Assembly: GCA_018824405.1 (NCBI GenBank)
Contig: JAHJGO010000009.1
Coordinates: 1-64,000 of the forward strand
Origin: Gammaproteobacteria bacterium
GTDB lineage: Bacteria; Pseudomonadota; Gammaproteobacteria; Burkholderiales; Sulfuricellaceae
Length of the DNA: 64,000 nucleotides
Direction of reading: 5' to 3'
Below, in pieces: positions 5,072 to 63,973 of this stretch. The notes beneath the pieces are model-generated. The model made no database searches, was not told the origin of the DNA, and was given only the letters and a program-made list of their open reading frames with translations. Numbering within the stretch: the stretch's first letter is position 1; each line of letters starts with the position of its first letter. The translations under genes and the position numbers were made by a program.

Positions 5072-5318
5072 ATTCAACTCCGGTCGTACGATTCTTGATG
5101 GGATAGCGGCTAGGGAGCAAGGGCGCTGCCATGGCCATCTTACCATCCAGGCAACTGTCGGCAACTGGATCCCCGCCTCATTGCCCGTCCACGTCTGCGC
5201 AAACAGGACGGTCCAAAGATACAAATTGAAACTACTCCCGGCTCTCGCCCACGGTACAATCAGAAAACTCGCTTTAAGCAGCTTTCCCTAGTCAAATTCA
5301 CGCCTTTCCGAAGACTCC

Positions 5319-6428
5319 ATGTTCAATGCTCACCCCCCAAAACAATACATCATTGCGTCAATCCAGGCGCGGCCGGACTGTGGCTCGTCGAGGGCGAAAG
5401 CATTGACAGTAAAACGTGCATGCGTCCTGTTGCTTTTGTCTGGCATGCTGCCGCTATCGGCCACCGGGGCTGCTTTCGAGAAATGTGCTGCAATCGTTCC
5501 AGATACAGAACGCCTGGCCTGCTACGACCAAGTCGCGGCACAATCGGTGCTGCCGTCACCGGTTCCCGCCGAGCCGGAGAACGGGACAATGGCGGAACAG
5601 CGTCCTGAAAGTCTAGCTGAGGCAGATTCGTTCCTTGGCAAGCGCTGGGAACTGGATGAGCGTTCAAAAAATGGAACCTTCCGTTTTCGCGAATACAAAC
5701 CGGTTTATATCCTGCCTTTCCATCACAGCAACAACCCCAATCAGTCGCCAACTTCACCAGCGCCGGATCATTCCGCATCTTCGCCCATGCCTTCCGGCAG
5801 TACCGATGTGAAGTATCAGCTGAGTTTCAAAACCAAGCTATGGGAGGATATCTTCGGGGACAATGGCAACCTGTGGTTCGGCTACACACAGCAGTCGCAC
5901 TGGCTGCTTTACAACTCGCAAGTTTCATCACCATTCCGCGAAACCAATTACGAGCCCGAGCTGATTTTTTCCCTGCGCACGGATGTCGATTTACCTGGGA
6001 TGCGCTGGCGCATGCTGAACCTGGGTCTCGCACATCAATCAAATGGGCGCGGCCTGCCGCTTTCGCGCAGCTGGAACAGGGTCTATGCTCAATTCGGGCT
6101 GGAACGCGACAAACTCACCCTGTTCGTGCGCCCCTGGCTGCGCCTGCCTGAACACAGCGAGAAGGATGACAATCCGGATATTTCCCGTTTCATGGGCAAC
6201 GGAGATGTGCAGATCGACTACCGGAGCGGTGAAAACACCTACTCAGCCCTGGGACGCTACAGCCTCAGTGGTAATCATGGCGCTTTGCAATTGAGCTGGG
6301 GGTTTCCGATATCACGCGCGCTCAAGGGATATCTGCAAGTCTTTAGCGGCTACGGCGAGAGCCTGATCGACTACAACCACAACCAGACCAGCATCGGCCT
6401 TGGCTTTTCGTTGCAGGAGTGGCGATGA
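5319..6428 (+). CDS. pldA: Outer-membrane phospholipase A (OMPLA family)
   Basis: OMPLA is an outer-membrane barrel that hydrolyses misplaced phospholipids and needs calcium-driven dimerisation. The catalytic triad is visible in LGLAHQSNGRGLPLSRSWN: His239, Ser241 and Asn253, with the same 12-residue Ser-to-Asn spacing as in the E. coli enzyme, and the chain ends in alternating beta-strand residues and a terminal aromatic-rich segment. A signal peptide (RACVLLLLSGMLPLSATGAA) lies unusually far in; TTG 5403 with GAGG upstream is a plausible alternative start that would put the signal peptide at the N-terminus. After it comes a short cysteine motif (CAAIVPDTERLACYD) found in several secreted proteins and a proline/serine linker near residues 140-165. 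Confidence 0.92.
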   Translation: MFNAHPPKQYIIASIQARPDCGSSRAKALTVKRACVLLLLSGMLPLSATGAAFEKCAAIVPDTERLACYDQVAAQSVLPSPVPAEPENGTMAEQRPESLAEADSFLGKRWELDERSKNGTFRFREYKPVYILPFHHSNNPNQSPTSPAPDHSASSPMPSGSTDVKYQLSFKTKLWEDIFGDNGNLWFGYTQQSHWLLYNSQVSSPFRETNYEPELIFSLRTDVDLPGMRWRMLNLGLAHQSNGRGLPLSRSWNRVYAQFGLERDKLTLFVRPWLRLPEHSEKDDNPDISRFMGNGDVQIDYRSGENTYSALGRYSLSGNHGALQLSWGFPISRALKGYLQVFSGYGESLIDYNHNQTSIGLGFSLQEWR

Positions 6429-6458
6429 GCCTGAACAGCATGCAGATCAGTTAAATGT

Positions 6459-6953
6459 TCACTTTTTGGGCGCGATTTTTTTACAGCCAAACGGCAAATA
6501 AGCATCGGGGATATCCGTTTTATTCTCGCCCTTGACGACCATCTTGTCAGGCACGGCCGCGTTCCCGCAAATCCAGGCGATCGGAACGACAGGCGAATCT
6601 TCCACAATGGCTGGACGGATCGACAGGATTTTGCCTTTCAACAAACCATGCGCGCTATTTCCGAAAGTCATGTGAATAACACCGTCTGCCACGAATAGTG
6701 AACTGATGTGGTTGCTCACGATGTTATCCGCATCCGGCAAGCCGGCTTCCTTATTATCTTCCGGGAAACTTTCCGTAGCTTTCCTGTAAGCCGAGATCGG
6801 CTCCTTGGCAGTGTCCGCAAAGGGAACGGCCGCGGCAATCTGTTCTCGCACAATCTTCGATTGATAGGAGGGGATTGCCATCGCAGCCAGAATGCCGAAT
6901 ACGGCCAGGACAACCAGCATTTCAACTGCGGAAAACCCGGTTTGTCTTAACAT
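6459..6953 (-). CDS. Type IV pilin-like protein (prepilin)
   Basis: This 164-residue protein has a class III signal: a short basic leader MLRQTG followed by FSAVEMLVVLAVFGILAAMA. The cleavage glycine, mature Phe1 and Glu5 are typical of prepilins processed by PilD and assembled in type IV pili or type II secretion pseudopili. The C-terminal half contains two cysteines (WICGN and PFGCKK) that could form the pilin D-region disulfide. I chose ATG 6953 because AAGGA lies nine bases before it; the TTG at 6962 sits on top of that site. No other pilus gene is nearby, so it is an orphan major- or minor-pilin-like gene. Confidence 0.88.
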   Translation of the reverse strand: MLRQTGFSAVEMLVVLAVFGILAAMAIPSYQSKIVREQIAAAVPFADTAKEPISAYRKATESFPEDNKEAGLPDADNIVSNHISSLFVADGVIHMTFGNSAHGLLKGKILSIRPAIVEDSPVVPIAWICGNAAVPDKMVVKGENKTDIPDAYLPFGCKKIAPKK

Positions 6954-6971
6954 TGACTTCAATCCTTTGGT

Positions 6972-7091
6972 TTAAAACTCCGGCACGACATTCATTGTTT
7001 CAAAGTCGCATGGTGCAGGCAACTTTTTTCTGAAAGCGTCGGCAGTTGCCGCTGCGGATTCCAGGCTGAAGCGCATCCCGGTTCCGATCAT
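6972..7091 (-). CDS. Unannotated 39-codon ORF coupled to greB
   Basis: ATG 7091 lies just beyond the greB stop and is preceded by GGAGG with six-base spacing, the best ribosome-binding site in this region. The frame encodes MIGTGMRFSLESAAATADAF, then RKKLPAPCDFETMNVVPEF, and stops at 6972, 18 bases before the pilin ATG. There is no membrane segment or known motif; one cysteine is present. Close packing between greB and the pilin gene and the strong ribosome-binding site argue for translation. I do not recognise it, and conservation in relatives is unknown to me. Confidence 0.5.
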   Translation of the reverse strand: MIGTGMRFSLESAAATADAFRKKLPAPCDFETMNVVPEF

Positions 7092-7092
7092 C

Positions 7093-7647
7093 TCAGACCT
7101 CCAGCGCCTGATAGCGGATCTCCACCACGTCCAGTTCCTCCACCCCGCCCGGCGTGCGCAGCGTCACCACATCGCCTTCGCGCGCCTTGAGCAGCGCTTT
7201 CGCCAGTGGGGAAACCCAGCTGATGCGGCCCCGGCCCACGTCCACTTCGTCTAGGCCGACGATGCTGTAGGTTTTTTCTTCGCCCATCTGATTGCTCACC
7301 GTGACTGTCGCACCGAAGAACACCTGGTCGCAATCTCCGCGCTGTGCGGGGTCGATCACCTCGGAGTGTTCGAGCCGCTTGGAAAGGAAACGAATGCGCC
7401 GGTCGATTTCGCGCAGACGCTTCTTGCCGTAGATGTAATCGCCGTTTTCCGAGCGGTCACCGTTGGAGGCCGCCCAGGTAATGGTCTTGACCAGCGCCGG
7501 GCGTTCCGTTTTCCAGAGCTGGTCGAACTCATCCATCAGGTGCCGGTAGCCGCCCGGCGTGATGTAGTTTTTCACGCCCAAGGGCAGTTTTGGCGAATCA
7601 TCGAGGTCTTCGTTGTCCTCGCTTTCCCGGGTGAACGCTTTACTCAT
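7093..7647 (-). CDS. greB: Transcription elongation factor GreB
   Basis: GreB rescues backtracked RNA polymerase by inserting its coiled-coil into the secondary channel and promoting RNA cleavage. The N-terminal coiled coil contains the tip acidic motif within ASNGDRSENGDYIYGKKRL, and the C-terminal FKBP-like domain contains ISWVSPLAKALL. The 184-residue length includes about 20 extra acidic residues at the N-terminus. I chose ATG 7647 (MSKAFTRE) because the frame further upstream belongs to the preceding gene, whose TAA stop lies inside this start region. The ENGDYIYGKKRLREIDRR sequence is more GreB- than GreA-like. Confidence 0.93.
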   Translation of the reverse strand: MSKAFTRESEDNEDLDDSPKLPLGVKNYITPGGYRHLMDEFDQLWKTERPALVKTITWAASNGDRSENGDYIYGKKRLREIDRRIRFLSKRLEHSEVIDPAQRGDCDQVFFGATVTVSNQMGEEKTYSIVGLDEVDVGRGRISWVSPLAKALLKAREGDVVTLRTPGGVEELDVVEIRYQALEV

Positions 7648-9679
7648 GGTCATGCTGCTCATGGAAGCGCCAGGTATTCCTGCCTTCTTTCTTCGCCCGG
7701 TACATGGCGCTATCGGCATTTTCGAGCAGTGTTTCAGCGTCATCGCCATGGTCCGGAAAGATTGCGATCCCAGTACTGGCGGTCACCTGCGCCTCTTGTC
7801 CTCCTGCCAGCACGGGACTGGAAACGGCTGCCCCGATTTTCGCGCTGACGCGATCAATATCGACGATCTCCTCCATTTCGACCAGGATAATGGCAAATTC
7901 ATCACCGCCCAGCCGAGCCACGGTATCGTTCTCGCGCACATTCTTTTTCAGGCGTTTAGCGATTTCCACCAGCAACTGGTCACCTGCCGCATGGCCCAGC
8001 CTATCGTTGACCGCCTTGAAGCCATCGAGATCAATCAGCATCACCACCACGGAACGCCCGCTACGTTTGGCATAGCCCATCGCCTGACGCAGGCGGTCGA
8101 ACATCAGGTCACGATTGGGCAGGCCGCACAGGGGGTCATGATAGGCGCGGCGCCACAACTCCCGCTCGGCACGCTTGGCTTCAGAAATGTCGCGTGAAAT
8201 GCCGACATAATTAATGGTCTTGCCGCTTTCGTCCTTCACCGCCACGATGGAAAGCCAGCGGGGTGCGATCTCGCCGGACTTGTAGCGATCCCATATCTCT
8301 CCCTGCCATTGCCCTTCTTGCAACAAGGAACGCCACATTTCCTCATAGAATTCGCGCTTGTGTCGGCCTGATTGCAGCAAGCGCGGATTCTGCCCCAGCA
8401 GATCTTCACGCAGATAGCCGGTGGTTTCTGTAAAACCGGGATTGACATCAAGGATATTGGCATTGGCATCTGTGACAACCACGCCCTCGGCAGCATTCTC
8501 GAATACGCGTGCCGCCAGGCGCAGGCGATTTTCCGCTTCTTGCTGCTGCGTAACGTCCTGCACAGTGCCGAGCATCCGCAGCGGTTTTCCTGTGCTGTCG
8601 CGAGTAATTTCGGCACTTTCGCGCACTATGCGCAAGCCGCCGTCGGGCCGCACCACGCGATGCACGATATCGTAAGCCTGCTCGCCGCCCAAGACGCGGT
8701 TCACGGCATCCATCACCGCCTGCCTGTCCTCAAGATGAACGGATGCCAGGAAGGCTTCATAGGTCGCCCCGAACTGCTGTGGCAACAGGCCAAAAATCCG
8801 GTACACCTCGTCCGACCAGTGTAGCGTGCCATGTTCGATATCCCAGTCCCAGTGTCCCATATGGCCAATGCGTTGCGCCTCGGCCAGGCGCGCCAGGCTG
8901 GCGCCAAGCTCCGCTGTCCTGGCTGCCACATCCTGCTCCAGATGGTCGCGCGCCTTCCGCAGCGCTTCCTCAACTTGGCGGCGCCCGGAAATCTCCTGCA
9001 ACAGGTCAGCCTGGTTGAGCCGCAAACGGCGCAGCACCACCGTGCTGGTGAGCACGACAACCATCATGGCTGCCAGCATCAGGCCCATCATTGCGAGGAA
9101 ACTGCGCTGATAGGCCTGCCGCGCACTCCGATCGGATTTTTCTGTCATGGAATTGTAGTGCGCGATGATGCCTTCGAATTTTTCCAGCACCTTGTCCTGG
9201 GCCGGGAGAACCTGGCTCCGCATGATCTTTCCGGCTTCTTCATTCTTCCCCTCCTGAAGAAGCTCGGCCGCCTGCTCGATAAATGGCGTCGCCCAGTTGG
9301 TCAACTCGCGCAATTCCTCGAGCAATTTCGCGCATTCCCTGTCCACCGAGTCCGCTGCAATCTGTTCAAGTTGGGTACGCAAGCCCACAAACTGACCGGC
9401 CCGAGAGAGGAAGCGCATATGGATATAGTCCTGCACGAAGGGGTCGTTCTCGAGCATCATGGCATTAAGGTCTACGGCCCGTTCACGGACGATGGCGCGA
9501 AGCTGGTGAACCAGCTCGATCCGGTTATTATCGAGCCGCGCCACATCACGGTTACGGCGCATTTCGTCATGATGCATATATCCGACGAATCCGGTTGCGG
9601 CCATGAGCATCACCACCATCAGAAAGCTCATGGCAATCTGGAGATTCGAGCGCGACAGATTCATTTGAAATTTTCCCAT
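7640..9679 (-). CDS. Membrane-bound sensor diguanylate cyclase (4-helix sensor, PAS, PAS, GGDEF)
   Basis: This protein of about 679 residues probably makes c-di-GMP in response to a periplasmic signal. Two hydrophobic segments bracket an all-helical periplasmic domain of about 160 residues. After the second segment come a coiled coil, two PAS domains (one with WDIEHGTLHWSDEVY, one with FENAAEGVVVTDANANILD) with PAC-like tails, and a C-terminal cyclase domain with an intact RLGGDEFAIIL active site. An RENDTVARLGGDEF arrangement supplies the RxxD product-inhibition site. There is no EAL domain. I chose ATG 9679 (MGKFQMNL); the frame is open to 9736, which would overlap pcm. The stop overlaps the greB start. 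Confidence 0.9.
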   Translation of the reverse strand: MGKFQMNLSRSNLQIAMSFLMVVMLMAATGFVGYMHHDEMRRNRDVARLDNNRIELVHQLRAIVRERAVDLNAMMLENDPFVQDYIHMRFLSRAGQFVGLRTQLEQIAADSVDRECAKLLEELRELTNWATPFIEQAAELLQEGKNEEAGKIMRSQVLPAQDKVLEKFEGIIAHYNSMTEKSDRSARQAYQRSFLAMMGLMLAAMMVVVLTSTVVLRRLRLNQADLLQEISGRRQVEEALRKARDHLEQDVAARTAELGASLARLAEAQRIGHMGHWDWDIEHGTLHWSDEVYRIFGLLPQQFGATYEAFLASVHLEDRQAVMDAVNRVLGGEQAYDIVHRVVRPDGGLRIVRESAEITRDSTGKPLRMLGTVQDVTQQQEAENRLRLAARVFENAAEGVVVTDANANILDVNPGFTETTGYLREDLLGQNPRLLQSGRHKREFYEEMWRSLLQEGQWQGEIWDRYKSGEIAPRWLSIVAVKDESGKTINYVGISRDISEAKRAERELWRRAYHDPLCGLPNRDLMFDRLRQAMGYAKRSGRSVVVMLIDLDGFKAVNDRLGHAAGDQLLVEIAKRLKKNVRENDTVARLGGDEFAIILVEMEEIVDIDRVSAKIGAAVSSPVLAGGQEAQVTASTGIAIFPDHGDDAETLLENADSAMYRAKKEGRNTWRFHEQHDHE

Positions 9680-51225: not shown

Positions 51226-52689
51226 TCAGCTCACTGTCTGATGCACAGGAATCCATATCCTGAACATTGTACCCTTGCCGACCTCGCTTTCCACCTCGAT
51301 TTTGCCGTGGTGTTTACCGATGATGCCATAGGAAAGCGATAACCCCAGGCCAGTGCCCTTACCTACCGGCTTGGTGGTAAAAAAGGGGTCAAAGATACGT
51401 GTCAGGTTCTCGGGCGCGATTCCCTTGCCGGTGTCGGAAAACTCGACCCACACCATCTCATCCTTAGTGCCGGTACGAATCACAATCCTGCCTTGCCCTC
51501 CCTCGCCGATGGCGTGGGAAGCATTGACCAGCATATTCATGAAAACCTGATTGAGCTGCGAGGCAAGACATTCCACCTGGGGAATGTCGCCATATTCCTT
51601 CACCACCTCGGCACTGTATTTGATTTCATTGTTGACCACGTTGAGCGTACTGTCGATGCCCTTGTGCAGATCGACCCATTGCCATTCCGTCTCGTCAACG
51701 TGAGAAAAATCCTTGAGGTCCTGCACAATCCGCTTCACCCGCACGATGCCCTCGGTGGACTCTTTAAGCAAATCAACGATGTCCTGCCTGAGATAATCCC
51801 ATTCCGCTGCCTTCTTCAAGACACGGATTTCCTCCAGGGCAGACAATTCGCCCAAGCTTGAAGCGACGCGCTCGTAAGCATCCGTCACCCTGAACAGTTT
51901 TTCAACATACTGCCCCAAGGTGCTCAAATTGGAATTGACGTAGCCGATGGGATTATTGATCTCGTGCGCCACGCCCGCCGCAAGCTGGCCTATGGAAGCC
52001 ATTTTCTCAGATTGCAACAACTGGTTGTGAGCTTCCTCCAGCTTCCTGATCAGCGCCTTTTGTTCCTCCTTTTCCCGCTGCAGAGCTTCTTCCGCCAGCT
52101 TGCGCGCGGTGATATCACGGAAGCTCAGCACCCGCCTGACATTTTCCTCACCTTGGGCATGGGGCAGCGAATAGCATTCGATCACCCGCCCGTCATTGCA
52201 ATCGAAGGTATCGTGGCACTCCGATTCGGGGTGATGACACAAATATTCCAGCTTTTCGGTAAACGCTCCGTGATCCCTGATCTGGCTCTGCAGATGCGCC
52301 ATCAAAGTGGCGTGATTCCAGAAAGCAACAACCTCCTTCGGCACGTTCATCATCTCGATGAAGCGCCGGTTGAAGCGTACGATCCTGGCCTCGTCGTCCA
52401 GCACCAGAATGCCATCGGCGGTGGATTCCAGAGTGTCGCCAAGAAGGGAAAGCAGTAATTCGAGCTGCGTCTCGGCTTCATGCCGAACAGCCAGTTCATC
52501 GCGCAATTCCGAATTGCGCTCGTTCAGTTCGCGCGACATCAACTCAAGCGAGCGCTCGATCATTCCACGGTCCGCATCCGCACTGGCATAAGCTTCGTCC
52601 ACCGCCGCCAGAAACAGCTCCCAGTCAGGCGGCAGTTCGGTTTTGTTTCCCAGGAAGCGTTTGATCTGGCGTTCAAGCAGGCGGTGCAT
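51226..52689 (-). CDS. PAS-domain sensor histidine kinase
   Basis: The 487-residue soluble kinase has a coiled N-terminal region, a PAS domain (ESTADGILVLDDEARIVRFN near residue 90-200), a second coil, the phosphoacceptor histidine His242 in AAGVAHEINNPIGYVNSN and an HATPase domain with N-box NQVFMNMLVNASHAI, G1 DTGKGIAPENLTRIF and G2 GKGTGLGLSLSYGI. There is no membrane segment or receiver domain, and no response regulator is next to it. The gene starts three bases after the FIST-protein stop, so its input is probably the FIST protein. Confidence 0.9.
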   Translation of the reverse strand: MHRLLERQIKRFLGNKTELPPDWELFLAAVDEAYASADADRGMIERSLELMSRELNERNSELRDELAVRHEAETQLELLLSLLGDTLESTADGILVLDDEARIVRFNRRFIEMMNVPKEVVAFWNHATLMAHLQSQIRDHGAFTEKLEYLCHHPESECHDTFDCNDGRVIECYSLPHAQGEENVRRVLSFRDITARKLAEEALQREKEEQKALIRKLEEAHNQLLQSEKMASIGQLAAGVAHEINNPIGYVNSNLSTLGQYVEKLFRVTDAYERVASSLGELSALEEIRVLKKAAEWDYLRQDIVDLLKESTEGIVRVKRIVQDLKDFSHVDETEWQWVDLHKGIDSTLNVVNNEIKYSAEVVKEYGDIPQVECLASQLNQVFMNMLVNASHAIGEGGQGRIVIRTGTKDEMVWVEFSDTGKGIAPENLTRIFDPFFTTKPVGKGTGLGLSLSYGIIGKHHGKIEVESEVGKGTMFRIWIPVHQTVS

Positions 52690-56836: not shown

Positions 56837-59800
56837 ATGTCGATCTCAGCGAACTTGCTGCAATGTTCGAGGTGCTTGGCCATTCTGGCTATGTGCGCCA
56901 TCCCCATCACCGTCCAGGCAGCTCCCGAACTTCCCGCCGCGAAAATCATCAATATCAAGGGAGCCGGCCACTACCGGCCGGAAAAGGTGCAGCAATGGAG
57001 TCCGGCCAGCGTCAATCAGGGGCTGTTTGCCGGGCATTTTGTCAAAACCGGCGACCTTAGCAAGATGGCGCTGCTGTTCGTCGACCAAACCCAGCTCAGC
57101 CTCAACCAGAACAGCCAGCTGCAAATCAAGCAAGTGCAGGATTCGCAGAAAAACCTCGACACCACAGTGCGCCTGAACCAGGGCAGAAGCTGGACACAGT
57201 CGAAGCAGATATCCAATCGACTAACCATGGAAACACCTTCTGCAACCGCCGCGATTCGCGGCACGGACTGGGAAATGGAAGTGGACGAGAACGGCAAATC
57301 CACGCTGACGGTCCTGAGCGGCGCGGTGGAGTTTTACAACGAGCAAGGCCGGGTGACGGTAAACAAGAACGAGCAGGCTGTCGCCGAGGTCGGCAAGGCG
57401 CCGGTCAAGCTGATCATCCTCAATCCTCGCAACCGCGTGCAGTGGGTCAGCGCCTACTCCATTGAGACCTTGCGCCATATTTACCTGCATGATGAATCCT
57501 TATCGCATCTGCAGCAGGAACTGGCCGACATCAAGGGTAACGATCCCGCCAACTTGACCAAGCGCGGCAATATCCATGCGGACCTGGGGCAGTGGATCTC
57601 GGCCGAACAGCAATACCGCGACGCCATCGAACAGCAGCCCAACGCAGTCGGTGCACTATTGGGGATGGGCTATGTCGAACTGCATCGCGGCGACCTGAAG
57701 AAAGCCGAGTCCTACTTCGCCCGGATGCCGGGCGATAGCGAATTACTTGCACTGGGCCACGCCACTGCATTGATCCAGGGCGAGCAGTTCAAGTCTGCGC
57801 TGGAAACATTGCAACACCTCATCTCCACGCCGGATATCAAACAGCCCGCCGCCTACCTCATGCTGTCAGACCTGATGGTTTACAGCGGTGAGCCGGGCAA
57901 GGCGATCGAGACTCTCCAGCAAGCCCGGCAGCGCTTCCCCGGCAACCCGCGCATTGCCAGCCAGACGGCTCGCGTTCATTTGTTTGCCGATCAGCCTGAA
58001 GAAAGCGGAAAACAAATTCAGGAGGCATTCAAATTAAATCCGCATTCCCTCGACGCATACCTGACCATGGGGGCGCTAGCCAGGCAACAGGGCGACGCAA
58101 TAGGCGCCGAATCCGCCTTTCTGGTCGCGATCACTCTCAAGCCGGACGACGACAGGGGCTGGTATGGGCTCGGTTCGGTCGCAAGCGAAAAGGAAGATGT
58201 CAAAAAAGGCCGTGCCCACCTCAATCAGGCACTCGCCATTCAACCAAACGGCCCCGGCTACCGGGGCGAACTGGCAACCCTGGAGACGTTTGCCAATAAC
58301 CTCGGAATAGCCGAGGCGGAGTACCAGCAGGCGCTCAAGGACGACCCTGGCGACTATGTTTCCCTGACCGGCCTCGGGCTGCTGGAACTCAAGCGTGGCA
58401 ACACGCAACCGGCGCTGGAATCCTTTCTCAAGGCCAGCGTCATCGAGCCCCGCTACGCTCGGGCCCACATGTACACCGCAGTGACATACTACCAGTTGGG
58501 GCACGTCGGGCGTGCGCTGGAAGAGCTCGCCCGCGCCAAGGAGCTGGATGAAAAAGATCCCTTTCCCTACATGCTGGCAAGCATGATTTACGGCGACCAT
58601 TTCGAGGCCGGCAAGGCCGTCTCCGAGGGCAGGGAAGCCTTGCAGCGCATGCCCTACCTGAAATCTCTGAACCAGATCGCCAACGATCAGAAAGGCACCG
58701 CCAACCTTGGCAGCTCCCTGGCCTTCTTCGGTATGGAAGAGTGGGCATTCAACCACGCGCAGGAGTCCTACAACCCTCTCTGGGGCGGCAGCCACCTGTT
58801 CCTGGCCGACCGTTACCCCAATCTGTTCAACAAAAACTCCGAGCTGTTCCAGGGCTACCTGGTCGATCCCACAGCGTTCGGCGGCAGCACCCGCTTTCAG
58901 ACGCTGTTGCCCAAACCGGGGAATTATTTGAGTACGGGGATACGTTATAACTATCAGGATGAGTACAAGGCCTATCAGCCCTACTTCACAGCGAACGGAT
59001 ATACCAATTCCCTGTTTCCGCTGGCCTATTTCCTGGATGCCGGATATGTAAGAGTCGAGCCCGGATCCTCCGCCATCAGCGCCGACAGCACCACCCTGAC
59101 CGCAGCGCTGGGCGCCAATCCCATTCATGAACTCGGGCTATTCGGTTTCGCTACCCAGACCGACACCGATGGAAAACTCGGCATCCTTCCCCTCACCTAT
59201 AAATCCGACCGCCTGGATCTGGGGGGACATTACAAATTCTCGCCCACCTCACAACTCTGGCTCAAACTCGGCGACAACAAGGAAAAAACCCGCCTTTCCG
59301 GCCGCATTCCGGACGGGGATCTGGCCTATTCCTCGGACACGGACACGCGCGAATACCAGCTACGCCATATCTTCTCAGTCGACGCCAATACCCAAGTGAC
59401 ATGGGGCTACGAAACTGCCTCGCTCGATACGCCGCAGGCATTGTCCATTACCTTGCCAAATTACCCCGACAATCCTGCCGTCAACAGCATCAAAGCCCAG
59501 AATCGCTCCAGCGATACCTATTTTTCCGGACGCTTTTCGCTCACCGATGCGCTACTGGTGCAAACCGATTTCTTTCACCAGCGCTATACCAAGAAGGAGG
59601 ACGCCAGTCTGGGTCTGGTCGGCTATCCGGAAACCTTCGAATATAGTCAAAAAGAGCACACCGAAAGCGAGCTCAACAAGCGCTTGGGGCTGGTTTACCG
59701 CTGGGGAGGAAACCGCCTGATGCGAGCCGCTTATCAGGAATGGATTCGCCCCGCCTCCGTCAGCACCCTGAGCTCGATCACGACAGCGGGCATCCCGGTC

Positions 59801-60463
59801 GACGATCAGCTGGTATCGCCGGGAGGGCGTAGCGTCCGCTCCAAGGTGCAGATGGAATGGGAATGGAATCCGAGCACCTTCACCACCCTTTACGCCGACA
59901 ACCGCAAGGTCAAGAATGGCCCTGTCGCCGGCATCCTGAGCAGTTATCTGGAGGGGCTGGACAAGCTCAAGGGCAACAAGCTGATCAACGCGGCCAGCAT
60001 TGACGCGCTGGAAGGCACGCCGCTGTTCGACGAAGGAAATGCGCTATCCGCCGGAGTGGCCTTGAACCGGATTTTGAGCCGGCATTGGTCGGTATATACA
60101 CGTTATGTCTACACAGACTCGGAAATCACCGGTGACTCGCGCGTGGAAGGCTTCCCCATCCCCTATCTGCCGCGCCACCAGCTGGTTCTTGGCGCGACCT
60201 GGGCCGGCCCGCAGCGCATCTTTGTCAACGCGCTCGCCATCTGGCGCGGGGACCGCTTCGCCACAGTGGACAGAGAGGAACGAACAGACAATCCCGGCAC
60301 ATACGACGACTACAGTAAAAAGCTGCGTGCAGGCTGGGATGCCGGTTTACGTGCCTATTGGGAGTCGCAGGACAAGCATTGGTCTATCGATGGCGTGGTG
60401 GCCAACATCTTTTCCCAGAACAATTCCACCTTCTATGGGATAGATGCCAAATATCGTTTCTGA
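56837..60463 (+). CDS. FecR-TPR-outer membrane barrel fusion protein
   Basis: A 1208-residue exported protein with a signal peptide (CLAILAMCAIPITVQAAPEL). Residues about 55-150 form a FecR-like domain (PASVNQGLFAGHFVKTGDLS, LSLNQNSQLQIKQ, TPSATAAIRGTDWEMEVDEN, LTVLSGAVEFYNEQGRVTVN). Residues about 225-620 are tandem TPRs (EQQYRDAIEQQPNAVGALLG and similar). From about 690 to the C-terminal phenylalanine the sequence alternates in beta-strand fashion (LSTGIRYNYQDEYKAYQPYF, then DLGGHYKFSPTSQLWLKLGD) as in a TonB-receptor- or PgaA-like barrel. It overlaps the following cyclase gene by 20 bases. FecR domains usually act with anti-sigma factors; none is here. Function is unknown; see findings. 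Confidence 0.85.
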   Translation: MSISANLLQCSRCLAILAMCAIPITVQAAPELPAAKIINIKGAGHYRPEKVQQWSPASVNQGLFAGHFVKTGDLSKMALLFVDQTQLSLNQNSQLQIKQVQDSQKNLDTTVRLNQGRSWTQSKQISNRLTMETPSATAAIRGTDWEMEVDENGKSTLTVLSGAVEFYNEQGRVTVNKNEQAVAEVGKAPVKLIILNPRNRVQWVSAYSIETLRHIYLHDESLSHLQQELADIKGNDPANLTKRGNIHADLGQWISAEQQYRDAIEQQPNAVGALLGMGYVELHRGDLKKAESYFARMPGDSELLALGHATALIQGEQFKSALETLQHLISTPDIKQPAAYLMLSDLMVYSGEPGKAIETLQQARQRFPGNPRIASQTARVHLFADQPEESGKQIQEAFKLNPHSLDAYLTMGALARQQGDAIGAESAFLVAITLKPDDDRGWYGLGSVASEKEDVKKGRAHLNQALAIQPNGPGYRGELATLETFANNLGIAEAEYQQALKDDPGDYVSLTGLGLLELKRGNTQPALESFLKASVIEPRYARAHMYTAVTYYQLGHVGRALEELARAKELDEKDPFPYMLASMIYGDHFEAGKAVSEGREALQRMPYLKSLNQIANDQKGTANLGSSLAFFGMEEWAFNHAQESYNPLWGGSHLFLADRYPNLFNKNSELFQGYLVDPTAFGGSTRFQTLLPKPGNYLSTGIRYNYQDEYKAYQPYFTANGYTNSLFPLAYFLDAGYVRVEPGSSAISADSTTLTAALGANPIHELGLFGFATQTDTDGKLGILPLTYKSDRLDLGGHYKFSPTSQLWLKLGDNKEKTRLSGRIPDGDLAYSSDTDTREYQLRHIFSVDANTQVTWGYETASLDTPQALSITLPNYPDNPAVNSIKAQNRSSDTYFSGRFSLTDALLVQTDFFHQRYTKKEDASLGLVGYPETFEYSQKEHTESELNKRLGLVYRWGGNRLMRAAYQEWIRPASVSTLSSITTAGIPVDDQLVSPGGRSVRSKVQMEWEWNPSTFTTLYADNRKVKNGPVAGILSSYLEGLDKLKGNKLINAASIDALEGTPLFDEGNALSAGVALNRILSRHWSVYTRYVYTDSEITGDSRVEGFPIPYLPRHQLVLGATWAGPQRIFVNALAIWRGDRFATVDREERTDNPGTYDDYSKKLRAGWDAGLRAYWESQDKHWSIDGVVANIFSQNNSTFYGIDAKYRF

Positions 60464-62450
60464 GCAGCAGACAAGCACTCGCTTCAGCCACAGGCTGAAA
60501 ACGCCACTTCTGGCAATAGTGGCATGGGCGCTGCTTTTTTTGGCCAGCTTCAGCTCACAATGGCAGTTACTGGAAAACAAGGGCTTCGACCTGCTGTCGG
60601 TTTACACCGCGCCCATGCAATCCACCTTGCCGATCACCATCGTCGGAATCGACGAGCCTTCCTTCGCCGAGATCGGCCTGCGCTGGCCATGGCCGAGGGG
60701 ATTGCACGCCGAGTTGGTGGACAAGCTCAGGCAGGCGGGCGCTGCCGTCATCGCATTCGACCTGATCATGGATGTTGCTTCCACGCCGGATCAGGACAGC
60801 CAGCTGGCGGATGCGATCAAAAAATCAGGTAACGTGGTGCTGGCGGCGGACTGGGTATTCCAGGAAACTACCTATGCCCGCCAATGGCTACGTGTAGACC
60901 CGCTGAACGAGTTCATTCAGGCAGGCGCCTCCGGTGGGCTGGCAACCATGACACTGGATGGCGACATGATCATCCGCCAGTTGCCGCATAATCGGGACGC
61001 ATTCTGGCGCGTCATCCTGGACAAATTCGACCAGGCGCGCCCCGGCCTGCTGCCACCGGTCAAGCTTCCCAATAAACCCATGATCCGCTATCTGGGGCCG
61101 GATCACACCTTTCCCTACGTTTCCTATTACCAGGCCATAGACCCGGATAAATACCTGCCCAAGGATTTTTTCCGCGACCAGATCGTGCTAGTGGGCAGGG
61201 ACACCAAGGCGTCCCCTGACGCCGGAGCCGCCCAGGCGGACACTTTTCCCACGCCGTTTACGGCATCCACCCGATGGCTTACGCCCGGCGTGGAACTGCA
61301 CGCCAACATCCTGGAAAACGTCGTGCTTGACTTGGAGCTAGAGCAGGCGCCACCTGCGGCAAGATACGGCTTGCTGACCGTTGCCATCCTGCTGGCAACC
61401 CTGGGTATGCGTCGCTGGCGACCGCTACTGAGCGCGCTGCTTGGCATCGTCCTGATGGCAGCAATAATTGGCATGGACTGGTGGCTGTTCCGCTACAGCA
61501 ACATCTGGCTGCCAGCAGCATCCCCCCTGTTCGGAATCGTACTGATTTACCTGGGACAAGGCGGCATGACGCTCTATACCGAGCAGCAGCGCAAGCGGCA
61601 AATCAAGCTCGCATTCGAGCATTATGTCCCGCCCCAGGTGGTGGCGGAAATAATCTCCCATCCCGAACAGCTTAAGCTGGGCGGACAGAAGCGCGAGGTC
61701 ACGCTGCTGTTCACCGACCTCAAGGGTTTTACCGCCATTTCCGAGCAAATGAGCCCGGAGGCCGTCTCCCGGCTGCTCAACCGCCACCTGACCGAAATGA
61801 CGCGCATCATCCTGCACCACAATGGCACCGTGGACAAATTCATCGGTGATGCGATCATGGCTTTCTGGGGTGCCCCGCTGGATGATCCACAACAGGCAGT
61901 CCACGCCTGCCGCGCTGCCATGGAAATGCAGGAAGCGATGGTCATCATGCGGCAACAGCTTTCCTCTGAAGGTTTGCCGCCGCTTTACATGCGCATTGGC
62001 ATCCACTCCGGCAGCGCGATCGTGGGCAATATGGGCTCCAACGACCGCTTCGACTACTCCGCTATCGGCGATACGGTCAATCTGGCCTCACGCCTGGAAG
62101 GCATCAACAAGCTCTACGACACCGAGATTTTGTTGAGTGAAAACACTGCAGCTCAAATCCAAAAGAATTTCACTTTGCGACAAGTGGATAAGGTCAAGGT
62201 CAAAGGCAAGCTCGAAGCAGTGGAGATATTTACCCTGGAAACGAATGAAATAATCAATTCCCTGAACCAAGAAGCAATCGATGCCTACCGTAGTTCTCAA
62301 TGGGATCAAAGCGAATCCCTGTGGAAGAGGGTGCTGGAAATTTCTCCGCAAGACAGGATCGCCGCGATTTACCTTCAGCGTATTGCCGCTTTCAGAAAAA
62401 CGCCACCCCAGGAAAAATGGGGCGGCGCCGTGTTGCTGGAAAAGATGTAG
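60444..62450 (+). CDS. CHASE2-domain class III adenylate cyclase
   Basis: The 668-residue protein has an N-terminal membrane segment, a large periplasmic CHASE2 sensor (ITIVGIDEPSFAEIGLRWPW and AVIAFDLIMDVASTPDQDSQ), three membrane helices near residues 300-390 and a class III cyclase (TLLFTDLKGFTAISEQMSPE; DKFIGDAIMAFWGAP). Both metal aspartates, the adenine-selecting lysine in VDKFIGDA and aspartate in YSAIGDTVNLASRLEG are present, so ATP is the expected substrate. The C-terminus ends in a TPR-like helical pair. The gene overlaps the end of the FecR-TPR-barrel gene by 20 bases, suggesting co-translation and joint function. Confidence 0.93.
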   Translation: MPNIVSEQQTSTRFSHRLKTPLLAIVAWALLFLASFSSQWQLLENKGFDLLSVYTAPMQSTLPITIVGIDEPSFAEIGLRWPWPRGLHAELVDKLRQAGAAVIAFDLIMDVASTPDQDSQLADAIKKSGNVVLAADWVFQETTYARQWLRVDPLNEFIQAGASGGLATMTLDGDMIIRQLPHNRDAFWRVILDKFDQARPGLLPPVKLPNKPMIRYLGPDHTFPYVSYYQAIDPDKYLPKDFFRDQIVLVGRDTKASPDAGAAQADTFPTPFTASTRWLTPGVELHANILENVVLDLELEQAPPAARYGLLTVAILLATLGMRRWRPLLSALLGIVLMAAIIGMDWWLFRYSNIWLPAASPLFGIVLIYLGQGGMTLYTEQQRKRQIKLAFEHYVPPQVVAEIISHPEQLKLGGQKREVTLLFTDLKGFTAISEQMSPEAVSRLLNRHLTEMTRIILHHNGTVDKFIGDAIMAFWGAPLDDPQQAVHACRAAMEMQEAMVIMRQQLSSEGLPPLYMRIGIHSGSAIVGNMGSNDRFDYSAIGDTVNLASRLEGINKLYDTEILLSENTAAQIQKNFTLRQVDKVKVKGKLEAVEIFTLETNEIINSLNQEAIDAYRSSQWDQSESLWKRVLEISPQDRIAAIYLQRIAAFRKTPPQEKWGGAVLLEKM

Positions 62451-62803: not shown

Positions 62804-63973
62804 GGAACCCCTGAACAAGTCCGCCGCCCTGTAAAATAGCGATCATTATGTCAGACCGACAAGCCCAGCCATGAAACAACTGAGTTTTGCTGCCAAAGAA
62901 TACGTGAAGAAGCCCAAGGAGACTCGGAAAGAGAAGTTTCTGCGGGAGATGGAAGCCGTGGTGCCCTGGGGTCGTTTGCTGTCAGTGATCGAGCCACACT
63001 ACCCCAAGGCAGGGAATGGTCGCCGGCCCTATGCGCTGTCGATCATGCTACGGATTCACTTCATGCAACAATGGTTCGGCTACAGTGATGCCGCCATGGA
63101 AGAAGCACTGCATGACGTGCCGCTGTTGCGGCACTTCGCCGGACTGGATGCCGGCACGGACTCGATGCCTGACGAGACCACCATCCTCAACTTCCGGCAC
63201 CTGCTGGAGTGTCATGGACTATCGAAGCAACTATTTGCCGAGGTGAATGGCCTGCTCACGGAGCAGGGATTGCTGCTGCGCGAAGGCACCACGGTCGATG
63301 CCACGCTGATCGCCGCCCCGCCCTCTACCAAGAACCGGGAGGGCAAGCGCGACCCGGCGATGACGCAGACCAGGAAAGGCAACCAGTGGTACTTTGGCAT
63401 GAAGGCGCATATTGGCGTGGACGATCAGAGTGGACTGGTACACACACTGGTGGGCACCACGGCCAAGGATTCTGACATGTCGCAATTCGCCGGACTACTG
63501 CATGGCGAGGAGGAGCGGGTCAGTGCGGATCGGGGTTACGACTACCCGCAGGTGCATGGGCACCTGCAACAGCACTTGGTAGAAGACTGGGTTGCCCGGA
63601 AGAGCAAACCCAACCAGGAGCTCGATGCCTGGACACGCGGGCTCAACCATGCGATTGCCAGGATACGTGCTATTGGCGAGCATCCGTTCCGGATATTGAA
63701 GCGCCAGTTTGGTTATACCAAGGTGCGTTATCGTGGCCTGTACAAGAACACGGCACAGCTGTACATGCTGTTTGCGCTGGGCAACCTGTTCCAGGTCAGG
63801 CGAGCGTTACTGGCGTCAGGGGCTTAATCCGCCCAGAACAAAGGGCTTTCGCCGGGAAATTGGCGAAACCCCGATAAAACGAGCAGTTTCAGGCTGTTCC
63901 GCGATGCATAAACAGACGAAAACGCAATTGTGAGAAATTCGAGGTGCCGAATTGCTACTTGTTCAGGGGTTCC
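62804..63973 (+). mobile_element. Complete IS5-family insertion sequence
   Basis: The 1170-bp element is bounded by inverted repeats GGAACCCCTGAACAAGT (62804-62820) and its complement (63957-63973), perfect over 17 bases, and flanked by a TTAG duplication (62800-62803 and 63974-63977), fitting the YTAR target of IS5 relatives. It contains one intact transposase gene. The good preservation indicates a recent insertion. It separates the CHASE2 cyclase region from the gene beginning at 63978. Confidence 0.93.
62871..63827 (+). CDS. IS5-family transposase
   Basis: The 318-residue DDE transposase begins MKQLSFAAKEYVKKPKETRK with a basic N-terminus, has the IS5 N-terminal signature ALSIMLRIHFMQQWFGYSDA and AMEEALHDVPLLRHFAGLD, and the catalytic residues in GTTVDATLIAAPPSTKNREG (Asp), VSADRGYDYP (Asp) and AIGEHPFRILKRQFGYTKVR (Glu). 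No frameshift or stop is seen, so it should be active. It lies inside the 1170-bp element. Confidence 0.95.
   Translation: MKQLSFAAKEYVKKPKETRKEKFLREMEAVVPWGRLLSVIEPHYPKAGNGRRPYALSIMLRIHFMQQWFGYSDAAMEEALHDVPLLRHFAGLDAGTDSMPDETTILNFRHLLECHGLSKQLFAEVNGLLTEQGLLLREGTTVDATLIAAPPSTKNREGKRDPAMTQTRKGNQWYFGMKAHIGVDDQSGLVHTLVGTTAKDSDMSQFAGLLHGEEERVSADRGYDYPQVHGHLQQHLVEDWVARKSKPNQELDAWTRGLNHAIARIRAIGEHPFRILKRQFGYTKVRYRGLYKNTAQLYMLFALGNLFQVRRALLASGA

Follow-up and report, generated by a model that had tools for sequence, protein, structure and literature searches.

Two overlapping genes in a 64,000-nucleotide stretch of DNA (hereafter, the window) very probably act as a single sensing unit, a hitherto overlooked relative of the NsrA-CyaK system of Sinorhizobium meliloti. 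The upstream gene encodes a receptor-like precursor, while its neighbor encodes a CHASE2-bearing adenylate cyclase (Table 1). The locus would extend to other bacteria a mechanism hitherto linked with the symbiosis of legumes, and it makes FecR-CHASE2 binding and the propeller-ligand hypothesis described below directly testable.

Table 1. Features of the receptor and cyclase genes, with positions in the window
Feature	Position	Strand	Evidence and remarks
NsrA-like receptor gene	56837..60463	+	1208-aa precursor; FecR, TPR and predicted TonB-dependent-receptor-type barrel; Pfam, orthologues, NsrA homology
Signal peptide, residues 1-28	56837..56920	+	MSISANLLQCSRCLAILAMCAIPITVQA, then AP; cleavage after VQA judged by eye
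FecR domain PF04773, residues 69-165, predicted periplasmic	57041..57331	+	Pfam 1.1e-13
TPR array, about residues 242-585	57560..58591	+	many Pfam TPR families, best 6e-26
TPR-barrel linker, highly conserved, family hallmark	58652..58886	+	PYLKSLN..FG.E.WA..YAQESY.P....SHLFLADRY....K.SELFQGYL.DPTAFG
Predicted C-terminal outer-membrane barrel, TonB-dependent-receptor type, plugless	58887..60460	+	ends in YRF
Overlap of receptor and cyclase genes, 20 bases, ATG/TGA	60444..60463	+	
CyaK-like gene, 668 aa	60444..62450	+	CHASE2, membrane segments and class III adenylate cyclase
CHASE2 domain, residues 30-311	60531-61376	+	Pfam 2.6e-41
Class III adenylate cyclase, Guanylate_cyc, residues 416-598	61689-62237	+	Pfam 6.6e-30

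The original prediction, made from the letters of the window, had given the coordinates of the receptor gene, the length of its product and the extent of the gene overlap exactly, and the FecR domain and TPR array that it placed in the precursor are borne out by Pfam. The FecR domain (AIRGTDWEMEVDE) is the best-conserved stretch of the receptor N-terminus. The conserved linker between the TPRs and the barrel, about 75 residues in length, could occupy the plugless barrel in place of a plug domain. Also correct was the description of the second product as a CHASE2 sensor with a catalytically complete cyclase: both domains are recognized by Pfam, and an alignment with five relatives locates all six catalytic positions, namely the metal residues D425 and D469, the purine-specifying (adenine) residues K465 and S539, and the transition-state residues N546 and R550. 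The second specificity position of bacterial adenylate cyclases is usually S, T or D.

Profile homology indicates that the C-terminal region of the receptor is a barrel of the TonB-dependent-receptor type. The corresponding Pfam family matches residues 782-1191 above the cut-off (2.3e-8), and PF00593 is matched individually by 12 of 19 family members. A profile of the receptor family also finds solved TonB-dependent receptors (5fok, 5fp1, 6v81 and 9c4o, at 6e-13 to 1e-10), with the match running through two separate barrel stretches, one N-terminal and one C-terminal. The terminal YRF (or RF) is retained in most of the family, and this agrees, as does the PF00593-type homology, with the C-terminal barrel ending in Phe that had been predicted. 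The structure prediction suggested at that time as a check proved unusable, leaving profile homology as the backing for the barrel: AlphaFold2, working from three-sequence alignments, reached a pLDDT of 34 for the mature protein and 33 for the barrel alone, so that the 22 strands of the barrel model carry too little confidence to count as evidence. Foldseek searches with this model returned no significant match (best E 1.1e-3, TM 0.15). Pfam detected neither the plug domain PF07715 nor a TonB-interaction module in the receptor, whose N-terminus is occupied by FecR and the TPRs.

The barrel profile draws a clear line between close relatives (E <1e-100 for complete sequences) and other barrels. 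By this measure the receptor family is rare and patchy, with matches in 13 of 399 order-level genomes and 4 of 369 class-level genomes, two of the latter four being more distant (E about 1e-34 to 1e-38). Linkage could be assessed at the fifteen loci outside the window that have enough flanking DNA. At 11 of these, distributed over several families and a gamma-proteobacterial symbiont, a CHASE2 cyclase gene immediately adjoins the barrel gene (G003, G011:C28, G249, G773, G505, G534, G629, G686, G409, G713 and, with the order reversed, G714). The cyclase of G007 lies in the same cluster, about 8-9 kb from the barrel gene, and no neighboring CHASE2 gene was found at the other three loci (G011:C50, G582, G657). 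The overlap of the two genes also recurs, measuring 20 bases in G003 and 1 base in G011:C28, the gamma symbiont and S. meliloti.

The two proteins share an evolutionary history. Their distance matrices correlate with r 0.86, and the partial correlation given MutS is 0.70, a value reached in none of 5000 permutations (p<1/5000); such a mirror-tree correlation shows a unit, not a contact, as co-transferred linked genes share their history whether or not the proteins touch. In G000, the genome of the window, the pair follows mutS. In G003 (75% identical) it is found elsewhere, with mutS on another contig, and the persistence of the pair and its 20-base overlap across these different contexts indicates that the pair moves as a unit. 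Conserved linkage, co-inheritance and changed context together identify the pair as a unit.

In the window, mutS lies upstream of the pair and a transposase gene downstream; the latter (62871-63827), directly 3' of the cyclase gene, is an intact DDE transposase gene (DUF772 and DDE_Tnp_1). These two neighbors confirm the earlier statement that no sigma or anti-sigma gene adjoins the pair. A classical FecIR system was considered and rejected, there being no ECF sigma or anti-sigma gene beside the receptor.

The closest characterized counterpart is found on the pSymB replicon of Sinorhizobium. In a tblastn search, the window receptor aligned from residue 7 to residue 1194, out of 1208, with pSymB proteins, at identities of 22-24% and E values of about 1e-45 to 1e-48. 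The receptor-family barrel profile aligns with the NsrA barrel at an hhalign probability of 98.5% (E 1.8e-15). The pSymB gene was taken as nsrA from its position beside cyaK, its length and its architecture. Its product contains a FecR domain (1.6e-15) followed by TPRs, in the same order as the window receptor. In S. meliloti ml47 the annotated cyaK shares 1 base with the FecR-TPR-barrel gene, as does an adenylate/guanylate cyclase gene in RCAM1750. The cyaK of S. meliloti ml59 (L024, 8585-10530), intact in those two strains, is frame-shifted in the deposited record, through either a sequencing error or a real pseudogene.

According to Garnerone et al. in 2018 (doi 10.1128/JB.00019-18), NsrA-CyaK of S. 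meliloti reportedly acts in the autoregulation of infection. Later published accounts give genetic evidence that, in this alfalfa symbiont, both proteins are needed for perception of a proteinaceous plant signal and for the cAMP response; they place NsrA in the outer membrane as a beta-barrel receptor whose barrel spans residues 600-1200, and CyaK in the inner membrane as a cyclase (PMC7529298, PMC13001267). CyaK corresponds to SMb20776 (PMC5498481). Judged by sequence comparison, the architecture in the window is thus not new, and the novelty that the original prediction implied for a single FecR-TPR-barrel protein beside a cyclase is not supported: NsrA and CyaK are already so arranged, and FecR/CHASE2 neighbors are common.

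How common they are can be seen in 41 related genomes, where 24 of 72 FecR genes have a CHASE2 gene no more than 4 kb away, compared with 0.6 expected. Such neighbors occur in several architectures among the relatives. Little is known about the stimulus of CHASE2, a very common type of sensor domain. G000 itself carries a second FecR gene beside a gene for a 737-aa CHASE2 cyclase (L039, G000:C17:154000-168000, 5149-8700); a few kb away, one ORF resembles an ECF sigma factor (2361-2924) and another its anti-sigma factor (1633-2364).

We consider it probable that the two genes of the window form one trans-envelope cAMP-signaling unit of the NsrA-CyaK kind. The receptor would be anchored in the outer membrane through its plugless TonB-dependent-receptor-type barrel, with the TPR array and the N-terminal FecR domain hanging in the periplasm. 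An extracellular macromolecule, not necessarily uL2, would bind the barrel loops, and binding would be relayed through the TPRs to shift the position or exposure of FecR. The FecR domain may then contact the periplasmic CHASE2 domain of the inner-membrane cyclase, a contact that would switch cAMP synthesis on or off. For the FecR-CHASE2 step, support is provided by the general pairing of these genes and by published FecR clusters with CHASE2 kinases and cyclases. That the barrel protein may inform the CHASE2 cyclase and so change cAMP, as originally proposed, is supported by the conserved linkage, the co-inheritance and the full-length homology to NsrA. Neither of the outcomes that the original prediction had named as refuting it was obtained: profiles point to a C-terminal barrel, and relatives retain the gene pair.

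With respect to the cAMP effector, G000 encodes eight cNMP-binding domains, and among the six proteins inspected by eye no canonical CRP/Clr was recognized: they comprise FNR-type proteins with an N-terminal Cys, one CRP-like protein in which the R-S/T-A signature of the pocket is missing, and an MscS-type channel (L100, G000:C11, about 52138-52389). The cyclic-nucleotide-binding domain at the C-terminus of this channel has the canonical pocket motif GEMGMMTGAPRST, and the channel might be a cAMP effector in G000.

At 9 of the 15 sister loci (L038, L036, L037, L022, L069, L070, L071, L074 and L075), the pair or the barrel gene is flanked by genes for exported beta-propeller proteins of the RCC1 or Vps10/BNR type. 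RCC1-repeat genes occur at G011:C50, G007, G534, G629, G686 and G409, and Vps10/BNR-type genes at G011:C28, G773 and G505; the G007 cluster also encodes LRR and InlB-repeat proteins. No propeller gene was found nearby in the window, G003 or the gamma symbiont, so propellers are not a defining part of the system. Only 4 of 41 genomes in the general sample have RCC1 genes, but in the family behind four of the six RCC1 cases they are common. Within one family, their co-occurrence with the barrel gene is weakly significant (9/10 vs 9/18, p 0.04), and the propeller link therefore rests on adjacency. A literature search found no paper joining RCC1 and FecR, and the propeller association of the sister loci appears to be unreported. 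The exported propellers are good candidates for the ligand or cargo of the receptor. A bolder and improbable extension is a three-part system, in which the receptor would have as its cognate ligand or cargo the exported propeller encoded in the same cluster, and would pass its own state on to the CHASE2 cyclase; the window copy would then be derived, its propeller neighbor having been lost or being encoded elsewhere. If true, cAMP would inform bacteria about the propellers on their own surface, as a sign of self, kin or surface integrity.

The same propeller genes bear on a different reading, in which the receptor serves chiefly as a channel that exports the propellers or assembles them at the surface, and the cyclase signals how export is proceeding, not whether an outside ligand is present. 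Adjoining RCC1 or Vps10/BNR genes in 9 of 15 relatives speak for such a channel, as do weak TPR_Slam and PgaA TPR matches in the receptor; the combination of TPRs and a barrel is, moreover, the architecture of BcsC, PgaA and Slam. However, the barrel matches TonB-dependent receptors rather than the barrels of those exporters, the window, G003 and the gamma symbiont have no propeller gene close by, and published genetics show NsrA acting as a receptor (PMC7529298). On balance we regard a primary role in export as distinctly unlikely.

The type of barrel might instead suggest an uptake receptor for iron or a vitamin, beside which the cyclase is regulated independently. Against this, FecR and TPRs stand where PF07715 and a TonB-interaction module would be; the conserved neighborhood contains no transporter or siderophore genes, and the cyclase is both linked and co-inherited. 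We judge this reading very unlikely, and a siderophore receptor was likewise considered and rejected. Finally, the two genes might be unrelated and adjacent by chance, as the 3 of 15 relatives without a neighboring cyclase could be taken to show. Against this, 11 of 15 keep the cyclase adjacent across several families, including the gamma-proteobacterial symbiont, S. meliloti does the same, and the partial r of 0.70 goes beyond what MutS explains. The supposition of the original prediction that the genes belong together has held, and a chance pair, by now scarcely conceivable, is refuted by the conserved linkage. The preferred reading remains a receptor-cyclase unit of the NsrA-CyaK kind.

Comparison with NsrA-CyaK reveals the same domain order (FecR, TPR and a C-terminal barrel of about 600 aa), similar receptor lengths (1208 aa in the window, 1197 aa for NsrA), homology along the full length of the receptor, and an overlapping downstream gene, in the same direction, for a CHASE2 class III cyclase. 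The systems differ in that the receptors share only about 23% identity, a level at which the ligand may differ. The NsrA barrel alone, unlike the window receptor, gives no PF00593 match, and its pI is acidic (4.5) whereas that of the window barrel is near neutral (6.1), so the electrostatic recognition of the basic protein uL2 proposed for NsrA need not apply. The host bacterium is also different, as may be the ligand and the downstream regulator, and no Clr orthologue was recognized among the cNMP-binding proteins inspected in G000.

Other systems share parts of this arrangement. Campylobacterota clusters contain a CHASE2 cyclase, a phosphodiesterase, a FecR outer-membrane protein and a TPR protein, proposed to act in one pathway (PMC9239204). 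As in the window, a CHASE2 cyclase is grouped with FecR and TPR functions, but these reside on separate proteins and a phosphodiesterase belongs to the cluster. The Burkholderia BiofilmReg operon encodes a LysM-FecR protein and a CHASE2 histidine kinase (PMC5192318), again placing a FecR-domain protein beside a CHASE2 sensor; its output, in contrast, is a two-component system, and its FecR protein has LysM, with no TPRs or barrel reported. FecA-FecR-FecI likewise carries a signal from the outer membrane to the cytoplasm by means of a TonB-dependent-receptor-type barrel and a domain named FecR. In the window, by contrast, FecR is fused to the barrel protein, the plug is missing, the output would be cAMP, and neither an inner-membrane anti-sigma protein nor an adjoining ECF sigma factor is present. 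Taken with its relatives, the locus supports a simple rule in which CHASE2 has as its partner a FecR domain that extends inward from the outer membrane or cell wall.
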